Assembly (NCBI GenBank): GCA_944989445.1
Contig: CALYLW010000181.1
Location: 647,764-711,763 of the forward strand
Direction of reading: 5' to 3'
DNA length: 64,000 bases
Source: Ampullaceana balthica
Taxonomy: Eukaryota > Mollusca > Gastropoda > Lymnaeidae
The position numbers were made by a program, and so were the translations under genes. This document shows, piece by piece, positions 2,971 through 61,935 of the stretch; position 1 is the first letter of the stretch; the number at the start of each line of letters is the position of its first letter. Below the pieces are notes generated by a model, which was given only the letters and a program-made list of their open reading frames with translations, was not told the DNA's origin and did no database searches.

Positions 2971-3062
2971 CTTATGTGTTCCATGCTCTACTGGCGTTAA
3001 AAGGCTTACTGGCCATACTCTGTGTCTGTGTTGCACTTTTGTGTGTGTGTTTATTTCGTCAT
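2971..3062 (+). CDS. candidate leader (signal peptide) exon of the DSL gene
   Basis: A long pyrimidine tract ends in ATTAG at 2970 and a GTATGT donor follows at 3063. In the frame that joins phase 0 to the next exon the segment reads [17 protein letters not shown] followed by Arg-His, a strongly hydrophobic stretch like a signal-peptide core. It sits directly before the MNNL exon, 124 bases away. No ATG lies in this frame, so a start codon would have to come from an exon further upstream. This could be a chance hydrophobic run in T-rich DNA. Confidence 0.4.
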
Positions 3063-6000
3063 GTATGTGTTCAGCAGATCAGGGAATAACGCCGTCAGTT
3101 ATCTTTGTTAAATCTGGTGGCATTATTTATTTAAGTAATACACTAAGAGTGGTAACAATTTTAACATCTCATATATTTTTTTACAGGGTTTATTGAGTTA
3201 CGGGTCTTTTCAGATTAAATTCATGAGTTACTCAGACGACTGTTATGAAATAAGTTCACCATGTGACCCCATCTTTTCGTTCTGTTTAGGAAGTATATTG
3301 AAGTAAGTTTTCCAGCTTATTGGGCCTTAAAAAGGTGTAGGTATAAATATATATAAGAGATAACTAGTTTTGATATAAATTGAAAATGTTTGGAACTACT
3401 GATTATGCTTAACCTTCGATCTAAGTTACAGCGAACGTTTTATCATGCCGGGATGTAAGGTTTCGACGATGTTATTGTATTCATTAAAATAAAATTATTT
3501 TGTTATTTACAAAGTTGCTATATAATATTTTACGTATATTATGTCAACAAGGACTGATTGGTAGTTTTACTGCGTTTAACATCATGTTAAAATCCTGGAC
3601 ACAATTTTATTTTTGTAATTTCTTCAACCAACGCCAAAAGCGCTATAAAAACCCTTTTAAACTTCGAATTTTATTTATGTAGTGATTGGAATGGCTACTT
3701 TATTTCTACAAGAGATTAAATATTTCTTTAACAGAATTAAAATTGTTCAATTGAACAATTTTAATTGCGTTGAAAATATAACGTTTTAGGATGAACCTAC
3801 ATAATGAGGTTTCAAGGAGGTCCTTGATGACCGGTCAAGGAGATCAAGATAAGAGGTCAGGAAGGTCCGTGATAAGAGTTCACGGAGGTCCATCCACTAT
3901 GGCAGGATATGGAGGTCCACAATGGGAGGACAGTGAGGTCCACGATGGGAGGGCAGGACGCTCTTTAAAAAAAAAGTTCAATCTTTATACAATTGTTGAA
4001 CATCCGTATTATTTAAAACTAGCTGACCCGCGGCGTAGCATACGCCGCTAATGATTAATTGACGGGTGAAGACTTCCTGAAAGATACAGTTGTCAAAATG
4101 GGGTGGGTTTGGGCTGTGAGTGAATGAAAAGAAGGAACTCTGGAGAGACCCGCGGCGTAGCTTACGCCACAGACTTGCTCATTATAGAACGTGCAAAGAA
4201 CCGTTGTGACAGTACAGACACACAAAAAGCAGCACTAAGTAAATATAAAATAACGAGTAAACGTAAAGACATGCACACTGAGGTGTTGTTACCCGCCTCC
4301 CATTTATTAACCGACGTTCACTCGTGTTGTTTTGATTTCTTCGTGTTGTAGTTTGTGTCCGTTCTTTCCCCACTCTCTTTGCACTCTCCATGTGCAAGTC
4401 TGTGGCGTATGCTACGCCGCGGGGCGTCTAGTTTCATAATAATTATAAATCCTCAAATCCTATTTTTACATCGTTCCCTTTTCAAAAAATTAAAATATAA
4501 GCTCAAACAATGACGTCATAGAATATTTTTATACAAAATCGATCGCAGCGCCACCTAACTTACATCCATACAGACAACGGGAATCAATATACATAATTAA
4601 CATAAGTAACTTATCCGTGTTTGATAAATAGGAAATATTAAACTTGCTGAAATGTACACAAAGTATTAAACAATATAATTTGCAATGTCACGTCTGTAGT
4701 GTCTGTCCGTGACGTTATTAATTTTAGAAAGCAGTGCACCAAATTACTGCCCCAATGCATCCAAAGGTGTGCAAATGAAAGATGCGCTGTAAAAAATATT
4801 ATATAACGTCATTGTTTTAGCTCATATTTTAATTTTGGAAAAGGGAACAATGTAAAAAAAAACGTAAAAAACCAAGTTTTTACTATAAATCCTTATGTAC
4901 GAGACATAACTAAAAGAATGTTCATTATAATACGCAGTGCAAGACCATCCAAAAATACAAAATTGTAGTTGTCTCGTAAAACGTGTTTAATATAATGCGC
5001 ACCGATCAGGAATATGTTTATAAAAAGTGTTGTCAATAAAATACGCACCTTATTGCGCGACAGGAAAGGACGTTCGATACGCACCGCGACACTCTATCTC
5101 AAAAATTTAACATGATACATAGAGATAAATAAATAATCTAAAAATTCAATAATTGAATTACAGTACATGCGATCGATCTGAAATTTTGATACATCGTTTT
5201 TATCATCGGCACGAAACTGCCTGCAAAATTTCATCTCGCTAGCTTACGAGGACGTGGGTTAAAAATTGATCCAAAGTTTTTGTGACAAGCAAGCAAGGGC
5301 GCAAGCAGACACCACGAGTTAATATAAAGGATTTAAAAAGAGGATTTGATGATGGTTAATTTTATATTAATTTTAAAAAACCGTTTAAAAAACCAAGTTT
5401 TTGACTATAAATCCTTTATGTACGAGACATAACTAAAAGAATGTTCATTATAATACGTGGCGCAAGACCATCCAAAAATACAAAATTGCAGTTGTGTCGT
5501 AAAGCATGTTTAATATAATGCGCACCGATCAGGAATATGTTTATAAAAAGTGTTGTCAATAAAATACGCACCTTATTGTGCGACAGGAAAGGACGTTCAC
5601 TACGCACCGCGACACTCTATCTCAAAAATAAAAGTAAAAAAATGATTTTTAAAAACCACGTTTTTACAAGCGGACTAAAAAGAAGAAAATAATTTAAAAC
5701 TTTTAAGTTCAAGTACTTTGATTTAATATGACTAAAAACGTGGGGGGGGGGCGCTTATGAGGTTTAACATATGCAGCTCACTCATACTCTCACTTACAGA
5801 TCTCTCTTTTGCCTTCTAAATTAGAAATCTTTTGAGTCATATTAAATAAAAGTACTTGAACTTACAAGTTTTAATTTATTTTCTTCTTTTTAGTCCACTA
5901 ATAAAAACTTGGTTTATAAAAATAATTTTTTTACCTTTATTTATTTTATTCTTTTTAGTCCACTAATAAAAACTTCGTTTTTAACAATATGTTTTTACCT

Positions 6001-9000
6001 CTATTTATTTTACCAAACACCTCACAAGCGCCCGCCCAACGTTTTAAAAACATTGTGATGTGGTCACGGGGGGAACTCATGGGTGTCACCAAAAGCCGAC
6101 GGTACAGATATAGACTATAGATAAACTAAAAAGTTCAATAATTTAATAACAGTACATTCGATCGATCTGAAATTTTAATACAATGCATTGTCATCCAAGA
6201 TCTATCTGTGGTAAAATTTTCAGATCTCTAGGACCATCAGAAGTGGTTCAATTTTACGTTAGCAGATTTGAAAAAATCTTGGACAAACCAACAAACAATG
6301 CCACACCAACGAAAGCGAGTTAATAAAAACGTGGTAATAAAACAAACCTGTAAAAACAAAGTCTTTGACTATAAATCCCTTATATATGAGACATAACTAA
6401 CAGTATTGATTATTTTCCAACGCCACAAATATTTACAGACTGACACCGAGTGATGTCCCTTGTCTTTTAATGGGGGATGGGACGTGAGGGGGTGTCGGCA
6501 CGACGGTCGACGTCTAAGCGTCAACTCAAACTCACGTGGAAAAAAAAATAACAAACCGTGAATTTGAATTACATACCTCATATAAGGATAAACTAAAAAT
6601 GCATTAATTTAATTACGGTACGTTCAATCGATCTGAAATTTTGATACGATGCATTGTTAGGTGAGACGGGTCCGTGTGCCAAATTTCAGCTCGATCGGAT
6701 CCGGGAAGTGGGTCATTTTTCACTTTTGTTTTTCCACCCGCCCAAGACAGAGAGAGATGACAGACAGAGAGAGAGAGAGACGTCGGTGAAGTTAATATAA
6801 GGGATTTAAAAATAACATAATACATAGGAATAAATAAAAATAATCTAAAAAATCAATAATTTAATTACGGTAAATGCGATCGATCTGAAATTTTGATACA
6901 TTATTTTTATCATCGGTACAAAACCGCCTGCAAAATTTCAGCTCGCTAGCTTACGAGAAAGTGGTTAAAAATCGATCCAAAGTTTTGGCGACAAGCAAGG
7001 GCGCAAGCAAGTAACCAGACACCACGAGTTAATATAAAGGATTTTTAAAAACAAAGGGGGCGCCGTAGACGCCCTAAAACCCCAATCATATATTGTGTAC
7101 ATTTAAGGTAGTTTAATATTACGTATCTATCATACAAGGACAAGTTTGTTGGGCTTTTGAAAAAAGTGGGCGCCGTTGGCGCCCTAAATAAAAGTGGGCA
7201 CCGCAGCACATCCTATATTATATACATACTTTGTGTACATTTCATGAATATTTCGTATTTATCATACAAGGATAAGTTACTTGGGCTTTTGACATAAAAA
7301 ATAAAATAAAATAAATTAAAAACTATTATAAAATACTTTGTGTACATTTCAGAAAGTTTAATATTTCGTATTTATCAAACAAGGACAAGTTAGTTGTGCT
7401 TTTGAAAAAGTCGGCGCCGTAGGCGCCCTAAAAAAGTGCATTTTTTCAAAATAAATAGATTTCAGCTGAAAACTTTCGTCATTTTTGACGGGGTGATACG
7501 CTAGTTTCATAATAATTATAAATCCTCACATCCTATTTTTACATCGTTCCCTTTTCTAAAATTAAAATATAAGCTAAAACAATGACGTCATATAATATTT
7601 TTATACAAAATCGATCGCATCGCCACCTAACAACATTATTCCATACATAAATACATACAGACAACGAGAATTATGTATATTGATATCTTCTGTTTCTGTT
7701 TATGATTTGTCTTCACCAAAATGGAGCCCAAAAAAATTCAAGTGTATCATTTTCACTTCCCATCAGTGACTCGTGCTCTTATAAATTTGCCACAGCAAAC
7801 AAAGACTTTACTGATACTAACTTCATCAACTTTTCAAGAATGGGAGATATTAAGGGCATACCAAACCCTTGGAGCGTCGACTTCAACCAACTCAGTGTAA
7901 GTACTTCGTACGCTAAAACCTAGAGTATAAAAACACTCTACATCTTAAACCAGTCATGGGATTGTCAATGGGTTCCAGTTATATACTGAAACGCATTCCC
8001 ACACAGACACATTCCCACTTAGACACATTCCCACACAGATACATTCCCACTCAGACTAGAAATTCACGATTGAATCTATATATATATAAAAGCAAAAGCC
8101 CTCACGACTGACTCATCACGAATTCTCCAACTTCCCGTGTAGGTAGAAGCATGAAAGTTTTGGTAAATTGTTGAGTACTCTTCCGCAATGGTAACAGGCG
8201 AAAAAGAATTTTGAAATTCACACTCATGGGGGCCGGGGGCCCAACAAATTTCCCCCCTAATATGGGCTATATAAAAATTATAAATCACTCATTCTCCTAT
8301 TTCCCGTGTAGGTAGAAGCATGAAAATTTGGGAATATGCTCTTATGGCGATAACTGGTGAAAAGAATTTAAAAATTTCCACTCATGGGCGGTCGGGGGCC
8401 CAAAACCGGTTTTTCCTTATATGGGCTATATAAAACGGAATCAACACTAATTCCTCATCGTCCTGTGTAGGTAGAAGCATGAAACTTTGGAAAGTTGTTT
8501 AGTATCTTCCCGCAATGGTAACAGTCAAACAAAATATAAAAGTATCACTAACTTGGGGGCCGGGGGCCAAAATGTCGTTTTTTTTTAAATTGAGCAATAT
8601 AAAACAGGCTTATCATTAAATTTCAAATATCCCGTGTAGGTGGGAGCATGAAAATTTGGGAATATGCTCTTATGGCGATAACTGGTGAAAAGAATTTAAA
8701 AATTTCCACTCATGGGCGGTCGGGGGCCCAAAACCGGTTTTTCCTTATATGGGCTATATAAAACGGAATCAACACTAATTCCTCATCGTCCTGTGTAGGT
8801 AGAAGCATGAAACTTTGGAAAGTTGTTTAGTATCTTCCCGCAATGGTAACAGTCAAACAAAATATAAAAGTATCACTAACTTGGGGGCCGGGGGCCAAAA
8901 TGTCGTTTTTTTTTAAAATTGAGCAATATAAAACAGGCTTATCATTAAATTTCAAATATCCCGTGTAGGTGGGAGCATGAAACTTTGGGAAGTTGTTGAG

Positions 9001-10570
9001 TATCCTCCCAAAATGGTAACTGGCGAAAAAATATTTAAACTATCACTCACTAGGGAGCCGGGGGCATGAATGTAGTTTTTTTTTCTTATATAAAACTGTC
9101 TCAACACTAATTCTCCAACTTACCGTGTAAGTAGAAGCATGACACCTTGGCTAGTTTTGATTACCCTCCCGCGATGGTAACAGGCGTAAAAATTATAAAA
9201 TTATCACTCACTAGGGAGCCGGGGGTCCAAATGTAGTTTTTTTCCTTATATGAGCTATATACAACAGACTCATCATTAAATATCCAACTTCCCGTGTAGG
9301 TAGGAGCATGAAACTTTGGGAAGTTGTTGAGTACCCTCCCGCAATGGTAACATAGGAAGAAAAAAAATTAAATTAACAGCTCGATAGGATCCGGGAAGTG
9401 TGTCATTTTTTACTTTTCGTTTTTGCTTTTCTGCGGGACCACGACAGACAGACAGACAAGACGGTGAAGTTAATATATGTAGTATATCTATCATGATCCA
9501 GATTGAAATCAATTGGTGTTTTAAATTTGTGTTACGCGGGTTCTTAACGGTAACTGAGATCCTAATTTCCTAGAAAAGCGCGGGTATTTTGCTAGTATGG
9601 GGCCGTCCATAAGGTACGTCACACTATTTTTGACCATTTTTAACTCCCCCCCTCCCACCTGTCACAAACTGTCACACATCTCGGACCCCCTCCCCATAAA
9701 GTACGTCAAACTTTCGAACAAAAATGTAGTTTTTTATTTACAAAATAATCAAAATTTAATATAAAACAGCGTGACGTCACACATGGCCGGACCCTCCCCC
9801 CTGTCACAAACTGTCACACTTTCTTACACCCCTTCCCCCCCCTCCGGAGCGTGACGTACTTTATGGACGGCCCCTATACTATATAAATGACAAAACTGCA
9901 ACGCGTTTCAAAAAAGGTTTGATCATATTTTTTTCAAACTAATTTATTAGAAAATGAAACAAATTATTGAGTATAATAATAGCTTATATTCAGAACCCAA
10001 GCTCCATTTTTCGGACATTAAAGATTTTAAAAAATCGAATAAGCAATTGATCAATATAATAAAATATGTGGTCATGCAGGTCAATTGTTAGCACATATAA
10101 TTAACTTCCGACATGGTTTGACTAGAAAATAAGCTCTAAACGGCTATTTATTTCTATATTATCATACTTTCTTAACAGGACCCTTACTTACGTCTCAGAA
10201 TAAAAGTGATGGATGATGACTTCGGCCCCGATGATGACATGGTCACTTTCACTACAAATTTGACAGTTCCATCAGTGGCGACAGATGCATGGTCAACAGA
10301 ATTCTATCTAATAGAACGGATATCAGACATTAGATACTCGTGAGGCCATTAATTAGATGCACTCGTTTGTAATTATTTGAAATGTCAGAAATACCATAAT
10401 TGTGACAATCTATCTATCTAACTACCAACCAACCAACCTACCTACCTACCTACCTACATACCTACCTACCTACCTACCTACCTACCTACCTACCTACCGC
10501 CTGCCACCTGCCTGCCTGTCTGCATGTCTGTGTGTCTGCATGTCTGTCTGTCTGTCTGTCTGTCTGCCTC

Positions 10571-10650
<80 letters not shown>

Positions 10651-10651
10651 A

Positions 10652-10684
<33 letters not shown>

Positions 10685-15734: not shown

Positions 15735-15797
<63 letters not shown>

Positions 15798-18700
15798 GCA
15801 CTTTAGCATCACTTGATAATACAAGAATAATAACAAGAAGGTGACCAAGATTCTTTAAAATCCTTATACCTTGATGTGGTCACGTGACATGACATCTCGA
15901 CGACTACCAAAACAAGGCCCAAATATCGATACTAATTTTTTTCGAAGTGTTACTTGCTAGGGTGGTTAAGAAAGTACGATTGTAGCAAACACTAGACGCC
16001 CCGCGGCGTAGAATACGCCGTAGACTTGCTCATGGAGAGTGCAAAGAAAGTGTAGAATGAACGGACACCCCTAACTTCTATGAAGTCAGCTATAAAACGA
16101 TAATCGGTTTAAAATCGGAGTTACATAATCGATAATCGGTTTTTCACCCAAAAAAACAGCAACAACAACACGCAATTAACAACCTTAACTATGACTAACC
16201 CTCGCTAGGATCGGCCAATCACAGATTATGTTTAAGGGATGGTAGTATTAAATGGGAGGCGGGTAACAACAACCTCAGTGTGCATGTCTTTACGTTTACT
16301 AGTTATTTTTTATTTACTTAGTGCTGCTTTTTGTGTCTGTACTCTCACCCCCCCCCCAACCATTCTTTGCACTGTCTGTGATGAGCAAGTCTGCGGCATA
16401 TGCTACGCCGCGGGCTCTCCAGAGTTCCTTCTTTTCATTCACTCACAGTCGTTTGCCCAAACCCACCCCATTTTGACAACTTTGTCTTTCAGGAAGTCTT
16501 CACCCGTCACTAAATCATTAGCGGCGTATGCTACGCCGCGGGTCAGCTAGTCTTGGCAATAAAGGGATGAAAGAACGGGGATAAACAGACATTTTTAAAA
16601 ATTAAACAAAAAACAATTTTTTCGCTGGGGCTTGAACCCAGGACCTTCCCCGTATAAGGCGGCCGTGATAACCAGTACTCTACGAATCTCACGTTAGTCT
16701 GTGAAGGAACAATGCAAGTGAAACGCAAGGACCATTGTTGGTCTCGATACATTGGTCGACCCCAGCGAGTGTCATTCGTCATGCTCGGTTGCACATACTT
16801 GCGTCGTGGTGTCTCGCATGGTTCCATGAAGAGAATTATATATATATAGAATATATATAGATGGGAATTCAACAGACGTTAGAAATTTATACGATTGGAG
16901 CAACATGTATAATGGGATTGACGTTCGGGTCAATTTACTTTCATTTTATCATCTACAGAATCAGCTTTAAGTACAGGTATGCTTGTGATGCTGATGTCTA
17001 TGGTCAGCTTTGTAACTGCCGGCCACAAAACACGTCTACTGGACATTACACATGTGACGCTGTGACAGGGGAGAAGATCTGCCTGCAGGGTGTGTAGGAA
17101 TGGAGAGATTAAAAGATTGCTTTCGTTTTTGACTAAAATTGTTAGGATAAATGAATTTTATATTTTCTTAACAGCATTGAACATTCAGGCACAATCCACC
17201 TAAATCATGTAAAGAAAAGTTTAACAATTAATTTGTAATTTTATTTTCATAATTTTGTCCGGATTCGCAACTTAACTAATTAGTTGGGTTTTTTTCGTTT
17301 CAAGCCAATTAATTTTTTTTTAAATGCTATTTTTTAAAGGGAAAAAAGACGTAATAATTATTGCTCATTTTGAATGCCTGTAATGACGGCTATGTCACCA
17401 ATAATTTCAACCAATTATATGAAGATTTGAATGTTCTCCATTTGTGTTCTATGTAGGATGGCAGGGTATTAATTGCGCAGATGATATTGATGAGTGTAAG
17501 CAAAATTACTGCGCCAACGGACTATGTCAAAATTTACCTGGAGATGTCACCTGCATTTGTCCTGGTAATTACACAGGTAAAGGAGGGAAAAGATAGTAAT
17601 CATGAGACAGAAATTATAAGGTAGACATTTTTTACTATTTATGTAGATATGAACACAAAAATAGACTGCAAGGAAAGATCACGAGAAAAACAGATAAAAA
17701 TCAAAAGAGTATGAGGGGTAGAAAAAAGAGTTTTCTAGAAGAAAGAGAAAAGGATTGATATTTAGATGAAAGTGTATATGATTTTAAAACTTTTTCGAAA
17801 ATTTAAAATGGAAAGATTGTGTCTGTTGTGCACGATATTGACAATAATCAGTTGCTTTTTTAATTGAAAGGTATTTTGCCTTAAAAACCTGATCCTTAAA
17901 TAACAAAGGATTTCTTGTCTTCTGCTGAGATGACAGGGAACCTGGGTAATTGGAAATGGCATTGGCAGGGGGCAATGATCGGTGGTTATTAATTGTGGAA
18001 TTTGGAGGTGGCAATTAGAGCTGGCGCTGGGAGGAGGTAGTAAGAGTATGAAATGAGAAGGGGTAATGAGAGGTAAAAATGTGAAGTGATAATGACAGAA
18101 AGGCCCGGTCAAAATGGCCCCGGACAAATTGTTTAAATTTTTAACACAAAATGTACCAATTTTTTTAATTTATTTTTTCATTTAACCTTTTGTCAATTTT
18201 TTCATCTTTTAAAAAAAGTGGTCAAATTGTAAAATTATTTCTTGCGATGCTATTATATTAATTATTCTCAACAAACAACCGTGACTTGGTACCATATCGA
18301 GTAACTGCTATTAAATTCTTTCTTGTGATGTCATTATTATCAGTGGCGTAGCGAGGGGAGGCAAGGGGTGCGAATGCCCCAGGCGGCACTTTGCCAGGGG
18401 CGGCGAATTCCCAGTAGTTTTTTTTATTAAGTTTCTATCAATGAAAATTTTATAAGAAGGTGAAGCTTTTAATCAATATAAAATTACAGCCAAATAAGAA
18501 ATTAATAAAAGAAATAAAGGAACTATCTTAAAGAATGTGAACATTTCAACTGCCAAAACTTCATAAATTATTCTGATACTAATGCTACTGTTCCGAAAAA
18601 CCAGAGCCTGATGTGGTATCAACTGAACTGGTTCTTAAAATTTGACAGCTTTTCCTGTTGTAAATGCAAATCTGACTGTATCCTATCAATTTGAAACATG

Positions 18701-21700: not shown

Positions 21701-24700
21701 GATTATTATTGTTTCTTGTGAACTAAACCTGACGCTGAATCGGTGAGTAAAAATACTTAAATAATATTTGATTGTATTTTCAACTATGAATCCATCTATT
21801 AGTCCAGGACCTTTTTGTCGGTTAACCGCAACCCCTTTTTTTTTATGAGCAAGTTTCTTCGTTCATGTTTCATGGCAATGTTTCTATTTGATTTAAAAGC
21901 TTTTTATACTACCTATTAATTTTTTTAACACCACATTTTGATTGTATATTGTATTCAAATAGGTAAAAATTGCAACCAGGAGTGTTCGTCTCCACCTTGC
22001 GAAGACGGTGGTTGCTTCTTGCAACCGTGTAAAAACAATCGCACATGTAACATCATGTAAGTTCTCTTGTAAGGCTTATACAATTATTATTTCTTATTGA
22101 AAATTTATAATTTGTTTACCAAAAAAATATTTTTAAAAATTAAACTCTTAAAAAATAAGCCATCCCATCGTCTACATCAGTGTTGTACCCCGGAAATTAC
22201 AGCAGTGACTGCTTTCGTTCACTTTGTACTTGCTGAAGTGGATTAATAGAAGACGCAATGAAGCACTCCGCAGACTTTTTTTAAAATGCTTCTCAGACTT
22301 ATAAATCTGTAAATGGTAAATGATTAAACATTTACGTCAAGTGGTTTTAAAAAAAATTAAAATGATGTAATGACTAACTACCTTGATGATATTGATGAAA
22401 TTAGAAGTAAATTAAATGCTTATTTGGTTGTCTTGAATTTTATTAAATTAGCTCATTCAAGACGAATCAGTCTTTTGGCACAATTCATGGAAAACTGTAC
22501 ACCGTTCGCGTAGTTTGTACTGTATTGAAGATTTATGGTGCAGCCACTCGCTAACAGTTACAGTTTTAAACCACTTAATGGAGATTTTATTCTTCATATT
22601 TCTTCATTGCCACTTAAAGGACTAAAACATGGTAGAAAATATTACGATTTGATAGGTGACCTTTGAAACGCATCTATTTTTTTAAAATAATTAATTATTT
22701 TTCATGTGGTTCAAAAGAGCTTTAATTGTAACAAAATTGTTGATGGCCGCCAGAACTAACAGGGGTGCTGTATGTGTTTGCCAGTATCCATTGACTGGGG
22801 CTTACTGCGAGACACTGGTAACACAGCCACCAACTACAACTACAGAAATGCCAAGTAAGTGATAACAAGAGAAGAAACACCAAGTTACCCTAGGCCTGTC
22901 AAAGGGTACCTGAGAACCCGGGTACCCGTTGCCGTGCGATTAGCCTGGTAGTAAAATTTGCTTTGACACTAACTTTGCTTTGAAATACGCCGACATTGGT
23001 TTAACGATATAGACCAGCCAATGCTGTTTATCCACCCCCTCCCCTCCTCCCTCCACTCCTATAACCCGCACCCTTTCCCCTATCGCTTGGATTTCTTGTG
23101 TTCGTTAACAATTGTGCCTAGCCCCAAAACTGATTTTAATAATACACCTAAAGTTGTCAGTTTTTAAAGTCAATAAATTAAATTGTTACTAAAAAGTGTA
23201 AGATGGGTAAGACGTCGGCTGTGTGGCTACTTTGTGAAATGAGGTGCATGGATGATGGCTAGGTAGCATTGTATAGCGGTCATGATGGGACAATTATGCG
23301 ATGTTTTGAACAGGTAACCCGGGTACCCGTTCGAAATTTGGATGGGTACCCGGGCAGCTTTTTTTTTCAACAATGTTGACAGCCCTAGTTACCACTTGCT
23401 TAAGAAGGCTAGGTAGCTGTGATGGACCACCAAGAATGTATTATAAAGGTATATTGATGACTTAATTTCGAATGACTCAAATGTTTCGTAAATGACTTTG
23501 AAAATCATGGCTACCGACCCGATGGCATTATTACTATATATAGCTACACCACTGAAAGTACGTTTCAACATATTCCCACTTTAATTCTTTAAAATAAGAT
23601 ATGTATAAATAATATTATTGTATTAATGTACTTTTAAAAAATTAATTCTAATATTTATACTTTGGGTATAAAGATTCGCCATTTAAACACGTGTAATCTG
23701 ATGTTTGCTACACATCTTTGATATCCAATATCTCTGATAACGTCAGTCTTTTTTGTTACCATCAGCACATATATGTACAGATTTAACAAATTTAACTCAC
23801 TATTTTACTATTTTTACATGATTTATTTGATAGAGGTCACGCTTAAGTTCGAATATTTTTCTTTAAAAAACGTATTTACTTCTGCCCAAAATGTATTTTC
23901 TTTTAAAATTACATCTTTTCCCAAAATATTATAGACACAACAGATGCGCTAAAAACGGACACTGACAATCAAGCTCAGGTAACTCCCTTACATTATTCAA
24001 AGTATCAATAATTATATATACCTACAGCAAACAAATAGTTTATTATTCGGGGGATCGGGAAAGCTACGGCTTTCAATGAAACGATTCATAAGAGCGAAAA
24101 TTATCACCACTATAATTTCTTTTATAGCGTTGCATCCAAAATTGAGACTGCATCACAAGTATCGGAATACAATAAATTTCAGTCTTATTATGTTCTGAGC
24201 TTATTGTATTATTGCAAAAGATTTTGTATTCGTGTTTTAGAATGCAGTTACTTTTTTTAAAATAAGTGTTTGATTTATAAAATGCAAATACTAATTGTTG
24301 TCTTTTTTCTTGTAAATTTCTTTTGAATTTTGAATATCCTTTTAGAATTATTTCAAATTATTATATTATATAAATATAAATTATTATATATTAATATATA
24401 TTATTTTCTATAAACAAACTGACATGATAAATGCATACATATATACTTATGTATATGCATATGGTTATATCAATAGCGGCTGGATAGCAAAGCCGGTAGT
24501 GCACTTGCCTCACAAGCTGAGGTGCGTGGGATCTAGCCCACGCTAAGCCACATTATAAAGTTTGATATATGTTTATCGGTAAAAAAAAATCCCTCGCTGA
24601 CTTGGAGAGGAGATGGGCGACGCCAAGTGTACCAAGCCCCGAGATAGTTCTAATGGAAACCCCCTACGGCCACAAAAAATATATATCAATATATATAATT

Positions 24701-27700: not shown

Positions 27701-30700
27701 GTTTATTAATTTGCGTCATTATTTTACGTCTTAATTTTCAATAATTTTTATTTTATATAGCTCATATAGGGAAAAACTACATTTTGGGCCCCCGGGCCCC
27801 CAGTATCTTATATATATGGAACGAAACCCGTTTAATAACCTTTCCGGTATAATTTTGTGTACGTGTACCAAATTTCACGTTATTTGGTTGTCTGGATCTT
27901 GAGTTATTAGGGAACAGACAGACAACAAATGCGGCTTATATATATAGAGATATATAGAGATAGATAGATAGATATAGATATATATATATATATATCAAGA
28001 ACAATATAAGATTTCAATGCAAATTAGTGAGTTGTGCGCACACCACCGATGGTTTCTAGGCTGTTTTAAACTTTATAAAAATACACCGTTTCCGGCTGTC
28101 GTCCCTTTAAGTCTTTTGCTGATTAAATTAGCTTAATTTATATATATAAATACAAATTTAAAATGAGTAATGGATATATGGATATAAAACAATCTTAGTC
28201 ATGAAAACTTGATGATACATTAAAATAATTTAGTGAGTTAAAATCATAATTTTACACGACTGTTCCGCATATAATTTTACAAAATCTCCCAGTCTTTCTT
28301 TGTGGATAATGATGAGCTAAATATAATTTAAAACATAACTTTTATGGGTTGATGTATCTACACCAATGTCAATGAACAAACATTGGGTTACCCATACGAA
28401 AATACTGAATGTAATTGGATAGCAACTACTTTGGAGCGAGGCGGGGGAAAGATATCCTTCCGGGAACGGGACCACACCAGAAACGAGAACCACTGGGAAT
28501 GGAACCACACCAGAAACGAGAACCACTGGGAATGGGACAACACCAGAAACGACAACCACTGGGAATGGGATCACACCAGATACGAAAATCACTGGGAACG
28601 GGATCACACCAGAAACGAGAACCACCGGGAATGGGATCACACCAGAAACGAGAACCACTGGGAATGGGACCACACCAGAAACGAGAACCACTGGGAACGG
28701 GACCACGCCAGAAACGAGAGCCACCGGGAATGGGATCTCAAATGTGAGTGGGATCCAATCTAGGAACGGGGTGTTTAAAATAGTTATTATAAATGTGTTG
28801 TTTGTAGACATAATAATGAATAATTAATTTTATTTATTAAAAGAACATGTTTTTTACGTGGTCCTAAATTTTGATTTTTTCCAAATGGCTGTAGATTTGT
28901 TTATTCCTAATCCATTTTGGAAAATTTAGAAATTCTGTACTTTATTCATGGCCTTATGACATCCTCAAGCGTGGGAAAACCTTATGATTCATTTGTGTAC
29001 CCACCATGCGGTACAAACTAAATGCTAATCCAAAAGTACTTCAATCAACATTTTAAAATTCATACACTTTCTTTCATTGAGTGGCATTGCATAGCATGCC
29101 AGGCACGGTATTTATAGTATCAGATTGATTTGTTTAATAAAAACATAGTTATTTTTAGGGGTGTACCGGATTCAATTTTTTTTAAACTCCGGAGCCGAAC
29201 CCCGGTACACCACTAGTTATTATGAACAATTAATAGATTGATCATAGCCATTAAGATATATATACATATCATAACCCAGCCTAAACATTGACACTCTACA
29301 GTTCTACACGATGACCATCAGGCATTTTAAACATAAAGTTTGAACAGTCCTTTTATAATATTAACTGCAAATTAAGAATTTTTTTTACAAAATCTATTAT
29401 TTCGAACTATTTTAGAATGAAGAAGAGGGCTTCAAGCCTTGGTATGGAGCTATTATCTTTGTTGCCATCATTGTTCCGATTGTTGCCGCAGTATTTGCTT
29501 ACATCGTGTTTAAACGTAGAAGGTAATGTATTTTATTTAAGATTTTAAATATTGTTTACACATATTAGTTTTGCATACATATGAGGGACAAATTTTACGC
29601 ATAAATAAGTAAGAAAATTGATAGATTGTAAACAGAGAGGTCCAAAAAGCGAAAAGAAAATGGCGTTTTGAAAATTGACCTTTTTTAAAACTCTAACGGC
29701 AAAGGTGACATATATTTAAATAAGAATCTAGAGATAAAAAAAAGAACTCGGTTATACTTCATGTTCACAGAAATATACTTGAAGTATTATAAAATTTAAA
29801 TAATAACTAAGATCGTAAATTTGATAATAACATCATATTCCGACACATGCTGAAAGAAATAAGGAGAAAAGACTACTTTTCTGCGTTAAGTTTAAAACAA
29901 CGGAAATGTAACCAGGGCTACTGACCACACGCTACACCACCATGCGGCGATGACTTCATTTCGGACAACAGAACATTATTGTATGTCACGAAATAAAGTC
30001 ATCGATGCAGGGTTTATTTTAAAACAAAGTCTGCGGGGAAGACTTTGTTTTAACATAAAGACTCCGTGGTTTAAAAAAAAAGTCCCTTAATTATATTAAA
30101 TTATTAATTAAGTTTTTTTATTAACGTTTATGTCACAATATGTATTGTATTTGTGCCACAAACATGTTTGTATAGCTATTGGAAATTCAACGATTATAAG
30201 CTTAGCCAGAGGCGTAACAAGTTGAAAGCAAAGGGGTTGATTGCACTTTGAGAGAGACATTTTTAGGGGTGGCTAATTGACCAGCATTAATATTAACAAA
30301 AAAAATTAAAAAAATAATTTTAAGAAACTGAACTGAAAAAACAAAGATGATCAAGTAATACGGGAATGTGACACCATTGTCTTGGTACATGTACATATAA
30401 TTCCTTCTTTACGTTTGCCATGAGCTCCCGTGGTAAGGACTTCAAATTTTTCTTAAATTTGTATTTGTTGTCACATTTTTTTCCAAAAAAAAATTCGGGA
30501 GAATGTTCCACAATTTTGGTTTACCGTATAACAATTGTAGAACTTAATAAATTATTTGACTACCCTATAAATGAAAATAGTATAAAAATAATAATAAGTT
30601 ATTGCAATTATATAAATCAATTTAGGCTAAATCCATTTAAATGACATAATCTTGTAGAACTATTATTTGATACCTGGCTCACATCTCGCGTAGGTTCTTC

Positions 30701-32514
30701 ATCTTGCCTTCTCATGGACTCAATGGCTTGTCCTTTTTTTTTAAATTCTGAATTTTATACCGAAATTGATGTGGAACTGACTTCTGCGATGGTATATTCT
30801 ATAAGTAAGCAATTTCAATCCGATTGAACACATGGAGTTTGTGCGCTCTACCGTATCTAGGAATAATACCAGCCCATTCCTACAAACAAATACTGCCTTT
30901 TTACAATAAACGTTTGCCTTTTAACACAATTGATTAGAAACTACATTGAATGTGCTAAAACCTTTTTAAAAATAACCAAAAAATTATTCACGTTGATATG
31001 CAATTTTTTCAATTTTTGTCACGCCACTGAGATGGTGTCACAAGAGGTGATACCCTCCTCGCACCACTCTAGCTACGCTACTGCCATAAGCAGTATTAAA
31101 GTAAACGTGCGATTAAAATCATAACTAATTAATCATTACTAGCTGACCCGCGGCGTAGCATACGCCGCTAATGATTTAGTGACGGGTGAAGACTTCATGA
31201 AAGACACGGTGTCAAAATGGGGTTGGTTTGGGCAAACGACTGTGGGTGAATGAAAAGAAGGAACTCTGGAGAGACCCGTGGCGTATCACCCGTAAAAAAT
31301 TACGGAAGTGTTCAGCTGAAATCTATTTATTTTGAAAAAATGCACTTTTTTTAGGTCGCCTATGGCGCCCAACTTTTTCAAAATCCCAACTAACTTGTCC
31401 TTGTTTGATCAATACGAAATATTAAATTTTTTGAAATGTACACACAGTATTTTATAACTTTTTACATTGTTCCCTTTTTACAAAATTAAAATATCAGCGA
31501 AAACAATGACGTCATATAATTTTTTTTTACAGCGCATATTTAATTTGCACACCTTTTGATGCATTGGTGGAGTAATTTGGTGCGCTGCTTTCTAAAATTA
31601 GTATCTGTTGAACATACTTGCAGCTTGTCTCGCAGGGTCCGACCACGAAGAGAATTATATAAATAGATTCTAGCGTTGTTTTTTTTAGCGATCATTTTGT
31701 ATTATATTAAAAGTGTGATCGGGTCGGAATTATTTCGGGGCGGGGGGGGTGCCTTATTTTACAGCATGGGAATAATTTATTTTAATGTGACGATTTATTA
31801 TCAATTAATTTCGGCGTGCGGGGACTCTGTACGGGGGAGGATTTGTTTTGCGACACCGGCACTGACGTCACGAACTAACGCAACCAATCGTCGGGTCACT
31901 ACGAAACCCATTGATTGGAGGTGTGGGAAGTTCTAATCTGATGGGTTCAAAAGAGGAGCTGTCATCGTGAATACCACATCATGCTGTTGGGGCCGCCATT
32001 AATGACATCGTGCACCTCGGGAGGGGGAGGGGGGTCACACATTTGAGACGATGTGTGTCGTTTTTTAAAGAGTTGTTAAGTCACAACAGATATGGCGCAA
32101 CATTAAGTAAAAGTTCCATTTTAGTATTGGATTGCTCACAATTTATTTAATGACGTTTTAAATTGCTTCACGCGTGTAACGCTGCTATAGAGTGCAGCCT
32201 TATTTACTAAATACATACTTAAGTGACAATAAAGTGATTTGAAACATGCTCATTTTCAAATAGGAAATGCGGCTTTTATTGGCGTGGGGGGGTAGCCTAG
32301 ACTTCATGATATCGTATTTTATGGGACGCCTAACATTTGTGACGAGGGGGGAGGGGGGAAATCGGCCAAAATCGCGAGATGTAATTTATGTGAAATTATT
32401 AGTTTTCTTTCCAGAGCCCCACAGGAACAGCCCGAAGTACAGCACAGACAAACTACAGGTGCAGATACCGAGAGTCAGAAACTGACGTTTGTAAATAAAA
32501 TCTTTCATATTTAA
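2971..32514 (+). CDS. Notch-ligand-like (DSL family) transmembrane protein gene, about 12 exons
   Basis: The joined exons are 2971-3062, 3187-3302, 7743-7896, 10179-10339, 16959-17089, 17457-17576, 21963-22056, 22763-22854, 23935-23978, 28423-28743, 29416-29522 and 32415-32514. Every junction has GT/AG borders and the reading phase carries through without a stop. Domain order is hydrophobic leader, MNNL/C2-like region, DSL, two EGF modules, Thr-rich repeat stalk, one membrane span and a tail of about 36 residues. Known DSL proteins are single-pass ligands that bind Notch EGF repeats on a neighbouring cell through their MNNL and DSL modules. Here there are only two EGF modules, closer to short ligands such as nematode LAG-2 than to Delta or Jagged with many EGFs. 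The initiating Met is not identified and an upstream exon is probable. The DSL-to-membrane part is secure. The first three exons and the last one are less so. Confidence 0.85.
3187..3302 (+). CDS. MNNL N-terminal exon of the DSL gene
   Basis: A T-rich tract and TACAG precede the exon and a consensus GTAAGT donor follows at 3303. The frame reads 38 codons plus two bases. It contains [15 protein letters not shown] and [13 protein letters not shown], which resemble the start of the Delta/Jagged MNNL module (a Gly-x-Phe-x-Leu/Ile strand, then Cys-x-x-x-Phe-x-x-Cys-Leu). The paired-Cys segment seen in Jagged is not obvious here. The link to the next exon completes an Asn codon. Confidence 0.7.
3735..3766. 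repeat. 32-bp perfect palindrome
   Basis: The two 16-base halves (AATTAAAATTGTTCAA and its exact reverse complement) meet without a spacer. It lies in the large intron of the DSL gene. No function can be assigned. Confidence 0.9.
4019..4432. mobile_element. Helitron-like element with hairpin ends
   Basis: The left end is CTAGCTGACCC followed by the hairpin GCGGCGTAGCATACGCCGC (4030-4048, 8-bp stem, 3-base loop). The right end has GGCGTATGCTACGCC, a few bases and then CTAGT (4428-4432). Helitrons end in a hairpin and CTRRT without target duplication. Here both ends carry the hairpin, as in inverted-repeat Helentron types. A third hairpin copy lies inside at about 4150. No coding sequence. Confidence 0.6.
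4468..4858. mobile_element. non-coding inverted-repeat element (ATCGTTCCC family)
   Basis: The left end (CATCGTTCCCTTTTC, TAAGCTCAAACAATGACGTC) reappears inverted at 4800-4858. The two arms are about 55 bases. The interior has no coding potential. Partial copies lie at 7535-7640, 31463-31600 and 62185-62372. Confidence 0.6.
4887..5334. mobile_element. AAATCC-ended non-autonomous element, copy 1
   Basis: It begins AAATCCTTATGT and ends ATATAAAGGATTT, a short inverted repeat. Internal blocks CGATCGATCTGAAATTTTG and AAATTTCATCTCG recur in all copies. The minus-strand frame of about 60 codons it contains is not conserved as protein. Confidence 0.6.
5409..5630. mobile_element. AAATCC-ended element, 3'-truncated copy
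   Basis: This matches 4887-5098 closely, including the block around GCACCGATCAGGAATATG, then ends at CTCAAAAATA. Confidence 0.55.
6373..6807. mobile_element. AAATCC-ended element, full copy
   Basis: AAATCCCTTATATATGAG at the left and ATATAAGGGATTT at the right form a 13-bp inverted repeat. An adjoining 3' half copy fills 6808-7044. Confidence 0.65.
7045..7510. mobile_element. GGCGCC-hairpin repeat ending in CTAGT
   Basis: Three blocks carry GGCGCCGTAGGCGCC-like short palindromes, each with ACAAGGACAAGTTAGTTG-type flanks, ending TTTTTGACGGGGTGATACG and CTAGT. Other copies are at 24760-24837, 31291-31460 (inverted), 35760-35970 and 62400-62616. Confidence 0.5.
7743..7896 (+). CDS. second MNNL/C2 exon of the DSL gene
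   Basis: The open frame ends at a GTAAGT donor (7897). It encodes one cysteine in SDSCSYKF and the segment [11 protein letters not shown], matching in order the Jagged/Delta region where a Cys-Ser/Thr-Phe/Tyr-Gly turn is followed by a Pro-Phe-x-Phe-x-Trp strand. The acceptor at 7741-7742 was chosen because it alone keeps phase with the preceding exon; its pyrimidine tract is weak. The same frame is open back to 7684, so the 5' border could be earlier. Confidence 0.62.
8089..9510. repeat. tandem satellite, about 165-bp unit, eight units
   Basis: The motif CCCGTGTAGGTAGAAGCATG recurs near 8138, 8303, 8468, 8634, 8796, 8961, 9124 and 9293. Each unit also has GGTAAC and GCCGGGGGCC blocks. 8321-8595 and 8648-8920 are nearly identical, so a two-unit block was duplicated recently. 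Inverted arrays of the same unit are at 25090-25990 and 50340-50700. It lies in the intron between the second and third DSL-gene domain exons. Confidence 0.8.
9599..9874. mobile_element. short inverted-repeat element, GGGGCCGTCC family, 276 bp
   Basis: It starts GGGGCCGTCCATAAGG and ends TTTATGGACGGCCCC, with a 3-bp flank TAT on both sides. It has no coding sequence. A near-identical copy is at 57362-57638. Confidence 0.75.
10179..10339 (+). CDS. C2-like exon of the DSL gene
   Basis: The acceptor is CTTAACAG and the donor GTGAGG. The 53 codons begin [20 protein letters not shown] and end ERISDIRYS, so the end leads straight into the DSL domain. The acidic DDDFGPDDD loop resembles the calcium-binding loops of C2 domains. 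Notch ligands are known to have an N-terminal C2 fold that can bind membranes; calcium binding here is inference. Phase 0 in and phase 2 out agree with both neighbours. Confidence 0.75.
10420..10685. repeat. compound tetranucleotide microsatellite
   Basis: A run of CCTA/ACCT units, then CTGC/CTGT units, then about 28 CTAT units follow one another, 80 bases after the donor of the C2 exon. Confidence 0.95.
10884..11696. mobile_element. hAT non-autonomous element with perfect 8-bp duplication
   Basis: The termini TAGGGCTGCGG and AACAGCCCTA are flanked by GTTTCAAT at 10876-10883 and 11697-11704. No transposase remains. Another hAT element (11136-11318) sits inside it. Confidence 0.85.
11136..11318. 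mobile_element. CAATGTTCCC hAT-like MITE nested in another hAT
   Basis: CAATGTTCCCTC and GGGAACATTG are its inverted ends. Flanks are CTATCATG and CTACCATG (7 of 8). The interior has CTGCGCAGCGGCGCTGC. A relative lies at 15356-15525. Confidence 0.78.
11705..13036. other. intronic stretch with little recognisable
   Basis: It contains one hAT-like block (CTGGTCCGCGGGCCAAAAG near 12298) with no partner end found, and AT-rich sequence. 12040-12235 is unusually C-rich for the region but matches nothing I know. Confidence 0.4.
13045..14653. mobile_element. hAT element, decayed
   Basis: It starts CAGTGGCGTATCG and ends CTACGCCGCTG, with AGGATAAC at 13037-13044 and AGGATAAA at 14654-14661. Short frames at 14033-14469 ([17 protein letters not shown]) match those in the element at 18341-21701 ([15 protein letters not shown]), so both descend from one autonomous element whose protein I cannot place more exactly. 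Confidence 0.8.
14662..14945 (-). repeat. tRNA-like repeat (minus strand)
   Basis: On the minus strand a tRNA-like region reads AGTGTACTGGTTATCACG and later GGTCCTGGGTTCAAGCCCC, a good B box with tRNA-Val-like D arm. The anticodon stem has a mismatch and the copy is followed by unrelated sequence, so it is not a working tRNA. A second copy is at 16612-16860. Confidence 0.6.
15356..15525. mobile_element. CAATGTTCCC hAT-like MITE
   Basis: The ends are CAATGTTTCC and GGGAACATCC, flanked by GTCACGGC and GTCAGGGC (7 of 8). Confidence 0.72.
15660..15795. repeat. GT dinucleotide microsatellite
   Basis: A mixed GT/GC tract grades into about 28 pure GT units. Minus-strand frames of His-Thr repeats here are artefacts. 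Confidence 0.97.
15992..16551. mobile_element. Helitron-like element, second copy
   Basis: It starts CTAGACGCCCCGCGGCGTA and ends with the hairpin GCGGCGTATGCTACGCCGC (16521-16539), GGTCAG and CTAGT (16547-16551). Interior blocks (AGTGCAAAGAA, GGAGGCGGGTAACAAC, CAGAGTTCCTTC) match 4019-4432 in inverted order. It lies in the intron before the DSL exon. Confidence 0.6.
16612..16860 (-). repeat. tRNA-like repeat, second copy
   Basis: Minus strand AGAGTACTGGTTATCACG and CCTGGGTTCAAGCCCC match 14662-14945. The plus-side end is an AT run (ATATATATAGAATATATATAG) 98 bases before the DSL exon acceptor. Confidence 0.6.
16959..17089 (+). CDS. DSL domain exon
   Basis: The frame contains [17 protein letters not shown], then [13 protein letters not shown] and ICLQG. 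It joins the next exon to give GWQGINC. The spacing of the six cysteines with the CRP, GHYxC and GWxGxxC motifs is diagnostic of the Delta/Serrate/LAG-2 domain, which binds Notch. Two in-frame acceptors 18 bases apart (ends at 16958 and 16976) are both usable. I chose the first because it has the better pyrimidine tract and adds ISFKYR, resembling the residues before the DSL domain in Jagged. An Asn-Thr-Ser glycosylation site lies in the loop before GHY. Confidence 0.93.
17457..17576 (+). CDS. end of DSL plus first EGF module (calcium-binding type)
   Basis: The exon lies between TATGTAG and a GTAAAG donor. It completes GWQGINC and then starts [18 protein letters not shown], with VTCICPG further on. 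Asp-Ile-Asp-Glu-Cys is the usual start of a calcium-binding EGF repeat. The sixth cysteine is supplied by the next exon through the GKNC junction. The intron before it is only 367 bases long and lacks recognised repeats. Confidence 0.92.
20423..21046. mobile_element. nested hAT element carrying a tRNA-like core
   Basis: The ends CTATGGCGGATTAAG and CTTAATCCGCCCCTG are inverted, flanked by GTGGTGTG and GTGGTATG. Subterminal blocks CCAGGGGCCCC are also inverted. The centre holds a tRNA-like stretch (20712-20775, B box GGTTCGATTCC). Confidence 0.75.
21206..21629. mobile_element. GGGGCC family element, long form, nested
   Basis: It starts GGGGCCATCCATAAATGAC and ends ATTTATGGACTGACCC with TTA on both sides. 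The interior has C-rich blocks and CCTATTTGAAAATGAGCATG, shared with copies at 31989-32401, 41971-42286 and 51336-51744. Confidence 0.72.
21963..22056 (+). CDS. EGF exon of the DSL gene
   Basis: AG at 21961-21962 and a strong GTAAGT donor at 22057 border 94 bases. The frame reads [17 protein letters not shown], then a short link and [10 protein letters not shown]. It closes the first EGF and opens the second. NRT is a possible N-glycosylation site. The 4.4-kb intron before it carries a nested hAT element with an intact 8-bp target duplication. Confidence 0.9.
22763..22854 (+). CDS. second EGF end and start of Thr-rich stalk
   Basis: The exon follows ACTAACAG and precedes a GTAAGT donor. It reads [18 protein letters not shown], giving the CxC and GxxC ending of an EGF module, then [11 protein letters not shown]. 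The switch from EGF to threonine and proline marks the membrane-proximal stalk. Confidence 0.88.
22891..23387. mobile_element. hAT-like element (CTGTCAA ends)
   Basis: TAGGCCTGTCAA and TTGACAGCCCTA are the termini, with GTTACCC before and GTTACCAC after. Subterminal GGGTACCCG blocks are inverted. Related pieces are at 35405-35553 and 55150-55680. Confidence 0.7.
23396..24473. other. intronic AT-rich sequence around the micro-exon
   Basis: Apart from the exon at 23935-23978 there is only AT-rich DNA, including a TATA/ATTA-rich run at 24350-24480. Confidence 0.5.
23935..23978 (+). CDS. 44-base stalk micro-exon
   Basis: The acceptor ATTATAG and the donor GTAACT enclose 44 bases that read [14 protein letters not shown] in the frame required by the previous exon. 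It leaves phase 0, as the next exon needs. Low complexity and small size make it less certain, but both splice phases fit. Confidence 0.68.
24474..24680 (+). repeat. tRNA-derived SINE-like sequence
   Basis: A tRNA-like head (GCCGGTAGTGCACTTGCC, CTCACAAGCTGAGG, degenerate B box GGGATCTAGCCC) is followed by a body with GAGATGGGCGACGCCAAG and TTCTAATGGAAACCCCCTAC. The acceptor stem does not pair well, so it is not a tRNA gene. Confidence 0.55.
25090..25990. repeat. inverted array of the 165-bp satellite
   Basis: The motif CATGCTTCTACCTACACGG, the reverse complement of the 8089-9510 motif, recurs at roughly 165-base spacing with GGCCCCCGGCC blocks. The last part runs into the AAC-rich repeat. 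Confidence 0.7.
26003..26960. repeat. AAC-rich repeat unit 1
   Basis: Opening ACTAGGGGCAAGTACCCGG, about 620 bases of imperfect AAC/GCAACA repeats are interrupted by the unique block GACATTGTCGTCGCAGGGCA. A shared 3' block follows (AATTATTTTATGGCGATAG to GACAACAAATGCG). Long frames of Gln/Asn/Thr or Cys/Val/Leu are artefacts of composition. Confidence 0.9.
26961..27950. repeat. AAC-rich repeat unit 2 (tandem duplicate)
   Basis: The same order of blocks is repeated with the same GTCGTCGCAGGGCAAGGG island (near 27355) and 3' block. It ends in an AT/GATA run (27940-27995). Confidence 0.88.
28423..28743 (+). CDS. mucin-like stalk exon with eight 11-residue repeats
   Basis: The only stop-bounded frame that joins both neighbours in phase 0 runs from the acceptor GGATAG to a GTGAGT donor. 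After 13 residues it carries eight tandem 33-base units (28462-28725) of the type [11 protein letters not shown]. Variants include [11 protein letters not shown]. Five units hold an Asn-Gly-Thr glycosylation site and all are rich in Thr for O-glycosylation. The repeat is open in other frames too, because the unit lacks stops. Those frames lack fitting splice phases and give charged His/Trp or Gln/Lys peptides unlike a stalk. The copy number is probably variable between individuals. Confidence 0.85.
29156..29215. mobile_element. 60-bp minimal hAT-like element
   Basis: TAGGGGTGTACCGG and CCGGTACACCACTA are the ends, with GTTATTTT and GTTATTAT as flanks (7 of 8). Almost nothing is left between the termini. 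The ends resemble sequence at 35565-35670. Confidence 0.65.
29416..29522 (+). CDS. transmembrane exon of the DSL gene
   Basis: After TTTTAG the frame reads [11 protein letters not shown], then about 23 hydrophobic residues including [20 protein letters not shown], then FKRRR. An acidic and aromatic extracellular border followed by basic residues gives the usual type I orientation, with the C-terminus in the cytoplasm. The donor is GTAATG. This exon fixes the product as a membrane-bound protein. Confidence 0.9.
29523..31138. other. intron between membrane and tail exons
   Basis: It holds AT-rich DNA, the hairpin at 30019-30053, and a hAT-like GGCGTAAC block near 30212 (its possible partner, CTACGCTACTGCC near 31072, would make a decayed element). 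No coding sequence. Confidence 0.45.
30019..30053. repeat. 14-bp perfect stem hairpin
   Basis: TTAAAACAAAGTCT and its exact reverse complement flank a 7-base loop, GCGGGGA. It lies in the intron between the membrane and tail exons; function unknown. Confidence 0.85.
31139..31290. mobile_element. truncated Helitron-like end
   Basis: CTAGCTGACCC and the 19-base hairpin are followed by the same bases as 4019-4150, then the copy stops at GAGACCCGTGGCGTAT and another repeat type begins. Confidence 0.55.
31989..32401. mobile_element. GGGGCC family element next to the last DSL exon
   Basis: It starts GGGGCCGCCATTAATGAC. The interior matches 21206-21629 in inverted order (TCATTTTCAAATAGGAAATG). The right end is eroded (GATGTAATTTATG) and stops about 13 bases before the last exon. 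Confidence 0.6.
32415..32514 (+). CDS. cytoplasmic tail and stop of the DSL gene
   Basis: The acceptor TTTCTTTCCAG ends at 32414. In phase with the membrane exon the tail reads [16 protein letters not shown] and ends [11 protein letters not shown] before TAA. Using the next AG two bases later would give a different 26-residue tail, so the exact tail is unproven. The ending Phe-x-Ile fits a class II PDZ ligand (hydrophobic at positions -2 and 0); several Notch ligands do end in PDZ motifs. The tail has few lysines for the ubiquitin-driven endocytosis that these ligands need. Confidence 0.68.
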
Positions 32515-32539: not shown

Positions 32540-32545
32540 AATAAA
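32540..32545 (+). promoter_or_regulatory. candidate polyadenylation signal of the DSL gene
   Basis: AATAAA lies 26 bases after the stop codon and is followed by a T- and GT-rich stretch. A second AATAAA at 32494-32499 overlaps the last codons. Either could end the message; the first would give a very short 3' UTR. Confidence 0.45.
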
Positions 32546-57879: not shown

Positions 57880-58339
57880 ATGTTTTCAAGTGCAAATTGT
57901 GTACAAATCTACATAAAATGCACATTAAGTTGACATCAGAAAAAATATCATTAATGAAATAATGGCCAAATGATAGCAAAAAGTCTAAATAATAATGTAA
58001 TTATTTTCTCCTGTGAGTCCAGCAAAAGATAAAATTCAAATTATGAAAGAAAATATCTGACAACCTATTACAAAATACCACGACACTTTCAGGAGAAAAA
58101 GCTTTCAGATGTGTTCTCAGTGGTTTTACCTATCCATGTAGACCATTATTAGATCACAAAACAATAATCACAGGAGAGTAACATTTTAAAATGAATGTTA
58201 TTGGCATATGTCATATGTTATCAAGAAGCTCAACAAACTTAAAAGGATGAATTCAGAAAAAAAACACTTTCCAATGTGATGTCTCTGGGAAGTGTTACCA
58301 GATCTGGTATCCTCACTGTACACAAAATGACTCATAGAA
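57880..58339 (+). pseudogene. decayed C2H2 zinc-finger segment upstream of the intact array
   Basis: After a good acceptor (TGTGTTTCAG) the sequence starts VFKCKLCTNLHKMH, a zinc-finger-like Cys-x-x-Cys start. It then meets stops and frameshifts. Later pieces such as FQCDVSGKC and LTVHKMTH are finger halves in different frames. The 58035-58340 part is repeated at 59340-59645, showing it belongs to the duplication unit. Confidence 0.6.
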
Positions 58340-61366: not shown

Positions 61367-61589
61367 CATATTAGTGCCCATTTTGTGGACAGGTGGACAT
61401 AATGGAATATAACATTTCTAAAACAAAAACACACACATTTATTAATGAAAAAAAAAGTATAATCTAACTCAACTTCTACAAGAGATAGACAAATGACTTG
61501 GTGTTTTCAATGACTATTTAATTTTATTACCAATAATTAAAATTAACAAAGAAATGGCTTGATTTTATTTAAACATTTTTTGATCTCGT

Positions 61590-61935
<346 letters not shown>

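Follow-up and report, generated by a model that had tools for sequence, protein, structure and literature searches.

Notch ligands are usually recognized by their DSL domain, and it is on this domain that counts of invertebrate Delta-like genes are based. LAG-2 and APX-1 are short Notch ligands, and in many canonical ligands, not every one, the first two EGFs after the DSL domain are short and atypical (the DOS type). In the definition given by Gazave et al. 2017 (PMC5356439), Delta-like proteins consist of a signal peptide, an MNLL domain, a DSL domain, fewer than seven EGFs, a transmembrane (TM) span and an intracellular domain, and a Delta protein has at least nine EGF repeats. For lophotrochozoans that paper reports three Delta-like genes in Platynereis and two in Lottia, of uncertain origin. 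Delta and DSL genes are described as duplicated in molluscs (Delta2), with DSL tandem genes in bivalves (Sci Rep 2021, PMC8166818). Mammalian DLL3 is presented in PMC9001970, citing Ladi 2005, as a DSL ligand that has diverged and does not activate Notch, and as having no lysines in its tail. For Jagged-1, F199, R201, R203, D205 and F207 are reported to form the Notch-binding face of the DSL domain, the same face serving both cis and trans interactions (PMC3415683), and substitution F207A is reported to abolish Notch binding and strongly impair activation (PMC3888931).

We analyzed a window of 64,000 nucleotides from the gastropod Ampullaceana balthica (C181:647764-711763, where C181 is contig CALYLW010000181.1; exon positions are those of the window unless marked C181). 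Exons were assembled from the open frames around the interval of a preliminary description, which had proposed a short Notch-ligand gene there, by splice sites and phase. Between 3187 and 32514, eleven plus-strand exons (E2 to E12) keep phase when spliced and form a single open frame; every junction has splice sites, most of them near consensus. The product has a signal peptide, an MNNL/C2-like region that is weak by sequence, a DSL domain, two EGFs, a membrane span and a short conserved tail, in that order, and is encoded by the following exons.

E1, C181:645776-645847, outside the window, ending 1,917 bases before window base 1: signal peptide MTLILFAHRFPVVILYAFLSPRFK; found in both copies of the gene.
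E2, 3187..3302, plus strand, phase 0 in: first part of the MNNL/C2-like region; supported by splice sites and phase, and by the paralog, which has the same residue at 22 of 39 aligned codons.
E3, 7767..7896, plus strand: middle of the MNNL/C2-like region; start supported by the paralog.
E4, 10179..10339, plus strand: C2-like stretch with a D-x-D motif, also in four related genes; supported by comparison with the paralog and related genes.
E5, 16959..17089, plus strand: DSL domain, including five of its six cysteines (E6 encodes the last), the loop between cysteines 2 and 3 being two residues shorter; supported by Pfam DSL.
E6, 17457..17576, plus strand: end of the DSL domain (GWQGINC) and EGF1, an orthodox EGF; supported by PF00008 and the paralog.
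E7, 21963..22056, plus strand: two additional cysteines and the first part of EGF2; supported by cysteine pattern and the paralog.
E8, 22754..22854, plus strand: last part of EGF2 and beginning of the Thr-rich linker; start supported by the paralog.
E9, 23935..23978, plus strand: linker, 44 nt as in the paralog, which supports it.
E10, 28423..28743, plus strand, phase 0 to 0: possible cassette exon of 107 codons, a 33-bp minisatellite; unconfirmed, with no counterpart in the paralog.
E11, 29416..29522, plus strand: transmembrane span and basic stop-transfer; supported by hydropathy, a paralog counterpart and a similar exon in the related gene C64.
E12, 32415..32514, plus strand: cytoplasmic tail and stop, with AATAAA at 32540; supported by splicing and phase and by the paralog.

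The spliced product has a length of 391 aa, or of 498 aa if the 107 codons of E10 are included. A chain of small exons in continuous phase, yielding a single uninterrupted product that includes DSL, EGFs, a membrane span and a tail, was what the preliminary description had proposed, and both the spliced frame and the paralog confirm it; its end point was also exact, as the stop codon ends at 32514. Its extent of 29.5 kb has to be enlarged to 34.5 kb, since E1 lies before the window, and its first exon, at 2971, found no support: there is no ATG after the last stop in the fitting frame, the stretch meets a stop when read in the phase of E1, and no clear paralog counterpart was found for 2971-3062 (best tblastn E 2.1). 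The choice of 2971 is understandable, since the only frame of 2971-3062 compatible with E2 is open and hydrophobic. Within the window, one plus two other candidates for a hydrophobic ATG exon with a phase-0 end before 3187 were considered, none of them convincing. Searching the regions upstream of both copies for a hydrophobic start with a phase-0 donor returned a signal exon reading MTRISFARKFQVVVLLAFLSPCFR in the paralog, along with its counterpart E1, and the upstream regions around E1 of the two copies align over 656 columns at 70% identity. The signal peptide, a hydrophobic start with an ATG, was called in both copies by hydropathy and similarity alone.

Comparison with the paralog located E1 and corrected two splice sites. 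For E3, an acceptor at 7743 is weaker and has no support from the paralog, whose exon starts at the same place in the protein as 7767, the site adopted here. For E8, an acceptor at 22763 is in frame and likewise lacks paralog support; it was replaced by 22754 because both proteins then read TNRxAVC. The stretch 16850-16958, whose frames look plausible, was rejected as coding, as the phases of E4 and E5 fit without it and the paralog agrees.

The Thr-rich exon at 28423-28743 (E10) of the preliminary description could not be confirmed. Its donor is good and its acceptor weak, and its 33-bp minisatellite (28462-28735) is open in all three plus-strand frames because of the repeat. Between E9 and E11 of the paralog, both in phase 0, no counterpart was found by eye, and the best tblastn match had an E value of 9.2. 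Among the eight repeat units, synonymous and non-synonymous changes stand at 5:6 in the exon frame, against 1:10 and 3:8 in the other two; these small numbers hint that E10 is coding. E10 is possibly a cassette exon that only the window copy has, or else not an exon.

The paralog lies in tandem on the same contig (C181:608688-631898, loci L009-L011) and ends 13.9 kb before E1 of the window gene. It is complete, encodes 399 aa and lacks the minisatellite exon E10; its E1 is at C181:608688-608759 and its E2 to E12 fall between 619595 and 631898. When the product of the window gene was used as a query against the genome, the exons of the paralog were recovered in the same order, and the phases at exon start are identical for all 11 shared exons. 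No internal stop occurs in either spliced copy. At 240 of 390 aligned codons the residue is the same, with dN 0.265, dS 0.645 and dN/dS 0.41, and the window gene is a coding gene under purifying selection overall. By exon, over short stretches of 14 to 54 codons, dN/dS is 0.86 for E1, 0.51 for E2, 1.15 for E3, 0.36 for E4, 0.26 for E5 (DSL), 0.03 for E6 (EGF1), 0.42 for E7, 0.29 for E8, 1.13 for E9, 0.37 for E11 and 0.39 for E12. There is accordingly little or no constraint in E1, E3 and E9, and the EGF1 exon E6 is the most constrained (dN/dS 0.033 over 40 codons). Its dS of 1.28 indicates that the similarity of this exon between the copies is not due to recent gene conversion.

The N-terminal MNNL domain of the preliminary description has no match to Pfam MNNL and weak support against shuffled sequences. 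An MNNL profile score as high was reached by 8 of 2000 shuffles with the earlier E3 boundary and by 65 of 3000 with the corrected one (122 of 3000 for the paralog). Aligned to a Serrate-like protein, P0001, with the earlier E3 boundary, the region scored as high in 6 of 1000 shuffles globally and 32 of 1000 locally, and hhalign gave a probability of 5%. Position and exon order favor MNNL, and relatives with a similarly changed DSL have MNNL exons nearby, one passing the Pfam cut-off (C56) and one with the motif seen by eye (C7). All five E4-like stretches (window gene, paralog, C10a, C10b and C64), some of them weak matches with E values of 0.008 to 0.023, have a D-x-D in the loop before an MVTF-like strand. 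By hand alignment this motif falls at the place of Jagged-1 Asp140, reported as a calcium-binding residue (PMC3888931), and MAFFT shifts it by one against P0001. The N-terminal 292 aa of the product match the PDB chain of Dll1 with an E value of 2.1e-24, a figure summed over several EGF stretches of which the best scores 43.4 bits, and that of Drosophila Serrate with 3.7e-13; PDB chains of Jagged-2 and Delta also match.

The DSL domain is clear. The preliminary description had named beforehand, as its own refutation, a DSL score below threshold, and this did not occur: against a cut-off of 24.2 bits, Pfam DSL (PF01414) gave 36.9 bits in a first scan and 37.3 bits in the later one, and 45.6 bits for the paralog. 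Its two EGFs stand in part. EGF1 passes when scanned apart (PF00008, 21.9 bits against a cut-off of 21.5; 18.6 bits in the whole product) and also matches EGF_CA weakly, while EGF2 is recognized by its cysteine pattern and has no separate Pfam score in the window gene. Neither EGF_DL_JAG nor VWC matched the product up to an E value of 10. The transmembrane span in E11 has a hydropathy of 3.05 over 19 residues and is followed by an intracellular part of 36 aa from KRRR on; past this membrane-side KRRR, window gene and paralog have two conserved lysines in common. In the genome, the TM span and tail together find the tandem pair and one weak match in C64 (E 0.40), where a TM-like exon preceded by a splice acceptor reads SEEEANFLPWYGAII... 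A C64 match to the tail (E 0.39) was discarded as not significant, a reverse-strand match with stops having scored E 0.043.

The assembly searched (1.097 Gb in 3363 contigs) holds 15 DSL matches, including that of the window gene and one on the same contig at C181:622738. We aligned 20 DSL rows on the GH motif and compared the five positions of the Notch-binding face. Eight rows are canonical, comprising five of known structure and C397, C811 and C1790 of the same genome, and seven are called degenerate, a grouping made after the sequences had been seen (window gene, paralog, C7, C10a, C10b, C56 and C64). Four DSLs of C497, two of which keep D205, and one of C2054, without the GH motif, belong to neither group. 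All eight canonical rows have R201, R203 and D205, seven have F207 (C811 has L), and five of the seven that are readable have F199. In the degenerate rows R203, D205 and F207 are present in none of the seven, R201 in one, the window gene, and F199 in two, C7 and C56; the paralog has Y, L, Q, T and T at the five positions. The degenerate domains keep the cysteines and the GHY motif, and the spacing between cysteines 4 and 5 is 8 in six of seven, versus 7 in all eight canonical rows. In the window gene, two residues are lost between cysteines 2 and 3. At least seven DSL genes in this genome lack most of the residues by which Jagged-1 grips Notch. An E4-like exon and an orthodox EGF exon are common to five of them (window gene, paralog, C10a, C10b and C64), an E3-like exon was seen in four of these five, not in C10b, and the EGFs of C56 and C7 are arranged differently. 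A tree of 48 DSL columns resolved nothing: it had no starred branch, and neither a clade of the canonical rows (p 0.41) nor one of the canonical rows plus the window gene (p 0.18) was rejected.

Several other loci came to light in the same survey. Two loci with canonical-looking ligand exons, C397 (L019) and C811 (L021), have L at the place of F199, and C811 has L at that of F207 as well. On C497 (187000-196999, locus L020) an open frame of 1,378 aa by program count contains three DSLs, EGFs and a long Ser/Thr-rich part, with a fourth DSL about 4 kb upstream; it recalls the bivalve tandem-DSL genes, but with EGFs. Rows of DSL-EGF matches at regular intervals of about 1.93 kb at C112:467993-485704 and 626387-636383 are probably a tandem array of another EGF-like gene. 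Two Notch NOD exons lie 66 kb apart at C1257:107919-108083 and 173970-174128, possibly belonging to two Notch genes or to a duplicated assembly stretch.

By architecture the window gene is Delta-like. It has the signal peptide, DSL domain, fewer than seven EGFs (two), TM span and intracellular part of the proteins so named by Gazave et al., and like them no ATEV end to the tail; it differs in that its MNLL is not significant, its first EGF is orthodox, and it is one of two tandem copies whose tail is conserved. The spliced product, with two EGFs, falls short of the at least nine of a Delta, and the VWC domain and at least 16 EGFs of a Jagged are likewise absent. With the canonical ligands (Jagged-1, Jagged-2, Dll1, Drosophila Delta and Serrate) it shares a six-cysteine DSL, a GHY-type motif, GWxG and type I topology, but it keeps one of five contact residues, has a C4-C5 spacing of 8 rather than 7, and has two EGFs, no DOS-type atypical EGFs after the DSL, EGF1 being orthodox, and no ATEV end. 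The bivalve tandem-DSL and mollusc Delta2 genes are a parallel in that DSL genes were duplicated in a lineage-specific manner within lophotrochozoans; the bivalve genes are said in PMC8166818 to lack EGFs, whereas the window gene has a single DSL and two EGFs. DLL3, known here by description, does not activate Notch, and no activation is expected of the window gene, but some tail lysines are conserved in the latter. The label "LAG-2-type" in the preliminary description is an analogy.

A function as Notch ligand, also part of that description, is not supported by the Notch-touching residues, since only R201 of F199, R201, R203, D205 and F207 is kept. Its wording of a reduced or diverged ligand, perhaps lineage-specific, fits with two EGFs, a tandem duplication, six further genes with a similarly changed DSL face in the genome and the absence of a match in direct, though insensitive, protein searches. 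Because one DSL face is reported for both cis and trans interactions (PMC3415683), its loss counts against a role as a Notch ligand in trans and in cis alike. We consider the chances about even that the window gene encodes a single-pass Delta-like surface protein that is not a standard trans-activating Notch ligand but rather an adhesion or recognition protein, an assignment drawn from sequence; the retention of R201 and the DSL score are points against a non-ligand reading. Lacking the standard Notch grip, it would act in adhesion or recognition at the cell surface, chiefly through contacts made by EGF1, whose exon is the most constrained. Calcium and membrane lipid may be ligands of the C2-like domain and its D-x-D loop, and the conserved tail may have a part in endocytosis or anchoring. 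The canonical Notch pathway is probably kept, as the genome has canonical-looking ligand exons (C397, C1790 and C811) and Notch NOD exons at other loci. More tentatively, with the balance somewhat against it, we propose that the lineage expanded at least seven DSL proteins without the Notch-gripping face and repurposed them for Notch-independent recognition or adhesion, with EGF1 as contact surface, beside intact canonical ligands and Notch.

A changed ligand face could also be matched by a changed Notch receptor, and the gene might then encode a genuine short Notch ligand, its face having diverged together with the Notch receptor of the lineage. In size it would be similar to LAG-2 or APX-1. 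The order C2-DSL-EGF-TM and a DSL above the Pfam cut-off agree with such a ligand, the tail lysines conserved in the paralog could be ubiquitinated, and the two NOD exons on C1257 make a receptor duplication possible. We nevertheless regard it as rather unlikely, as four of the five contact residues are gone and the canonical ligand exons of the same genome keep RPRDD, EGF1 is orthodox rather than of the short atypical type that follows the DSL in many canonical ligands, and EGF_DL_JAG gave no match up to an E value of 10. Somewhat doubtful too, and accorded a small chance, is a protein that attenuates Notch in the same cell, as a cis-inhibitor or decoy. DLL3, a diverged and non-activating DSL ligand (PMC9001970), offers a precedent, but loss of the face weakens this reading as well, given that cis interactions are reported to use this face too (PMC3415683), and DLL3 is described as lacking the tail lysines of which two beyond KRRR are conserved in window gene and paralog. 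A pseudogene or a chance chain of open stretches, suggested by a signal exon 5.1 kb from the next exon, three exons with dN/dS near 1 and a possible exon that is a minisatellite, is highly improbable in view of two spliced copies free of internal stops, identical phases at 11 exons and the overall and EGF1 dN/dS values.

Direct searches of a set of 5.8 billion protein sequences, which are insensitive, returned no match to the window gene. P0001 belongs to the same set and, with E values of 0.027 (above the limit) and 1.5e-4 (well under it) against the search queries, was not returned; because a protein at 1.5e-4 went unreturned, these searches are weak evidence. P0001 was found only with a mixed profile, whose matches mostly reflect its Serrate rows and not the window gene. 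Within the literature searched, we recognized no published description of loss of the Notch face in such genes, and the words "residue" and "Notch binding" are absent from the main text of PMC8166818.

If DSL genes can pass the domain test without most of the contact residues, counts of Delta-like genes may overstate the number of Notch ligands. Should these proteins turn out not to bind Notch, they would offer natural experiments in other uses of the C2-DSL-EGF module, and should they bind it, they would be an example of a rebuilt ligand-receptor interface.

Rfam and tRNA scans gave no matches. The window also contains an open frame at 755-1012 with a hAT transposase dimerization region (Pfam Dimer_Tnp_hAT, 27.6 bits) and a degenerate 21-bp tandem array at 34895-35354 (about 21.6 copies, 65% matches). 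Two long and similar AAC-type arrays, at 26033-26656 and 26993-27653, have their starts 960 bases apart, and copies of a longer repeat (D8) flank the arrays on both sides and also lie between them. C2H2 zinc-finger arrays are found at 58331-59266, by Pfam zf-C2H2, at 59635-59919, as an open frame, and at 61490-61957, from the repeat listing.
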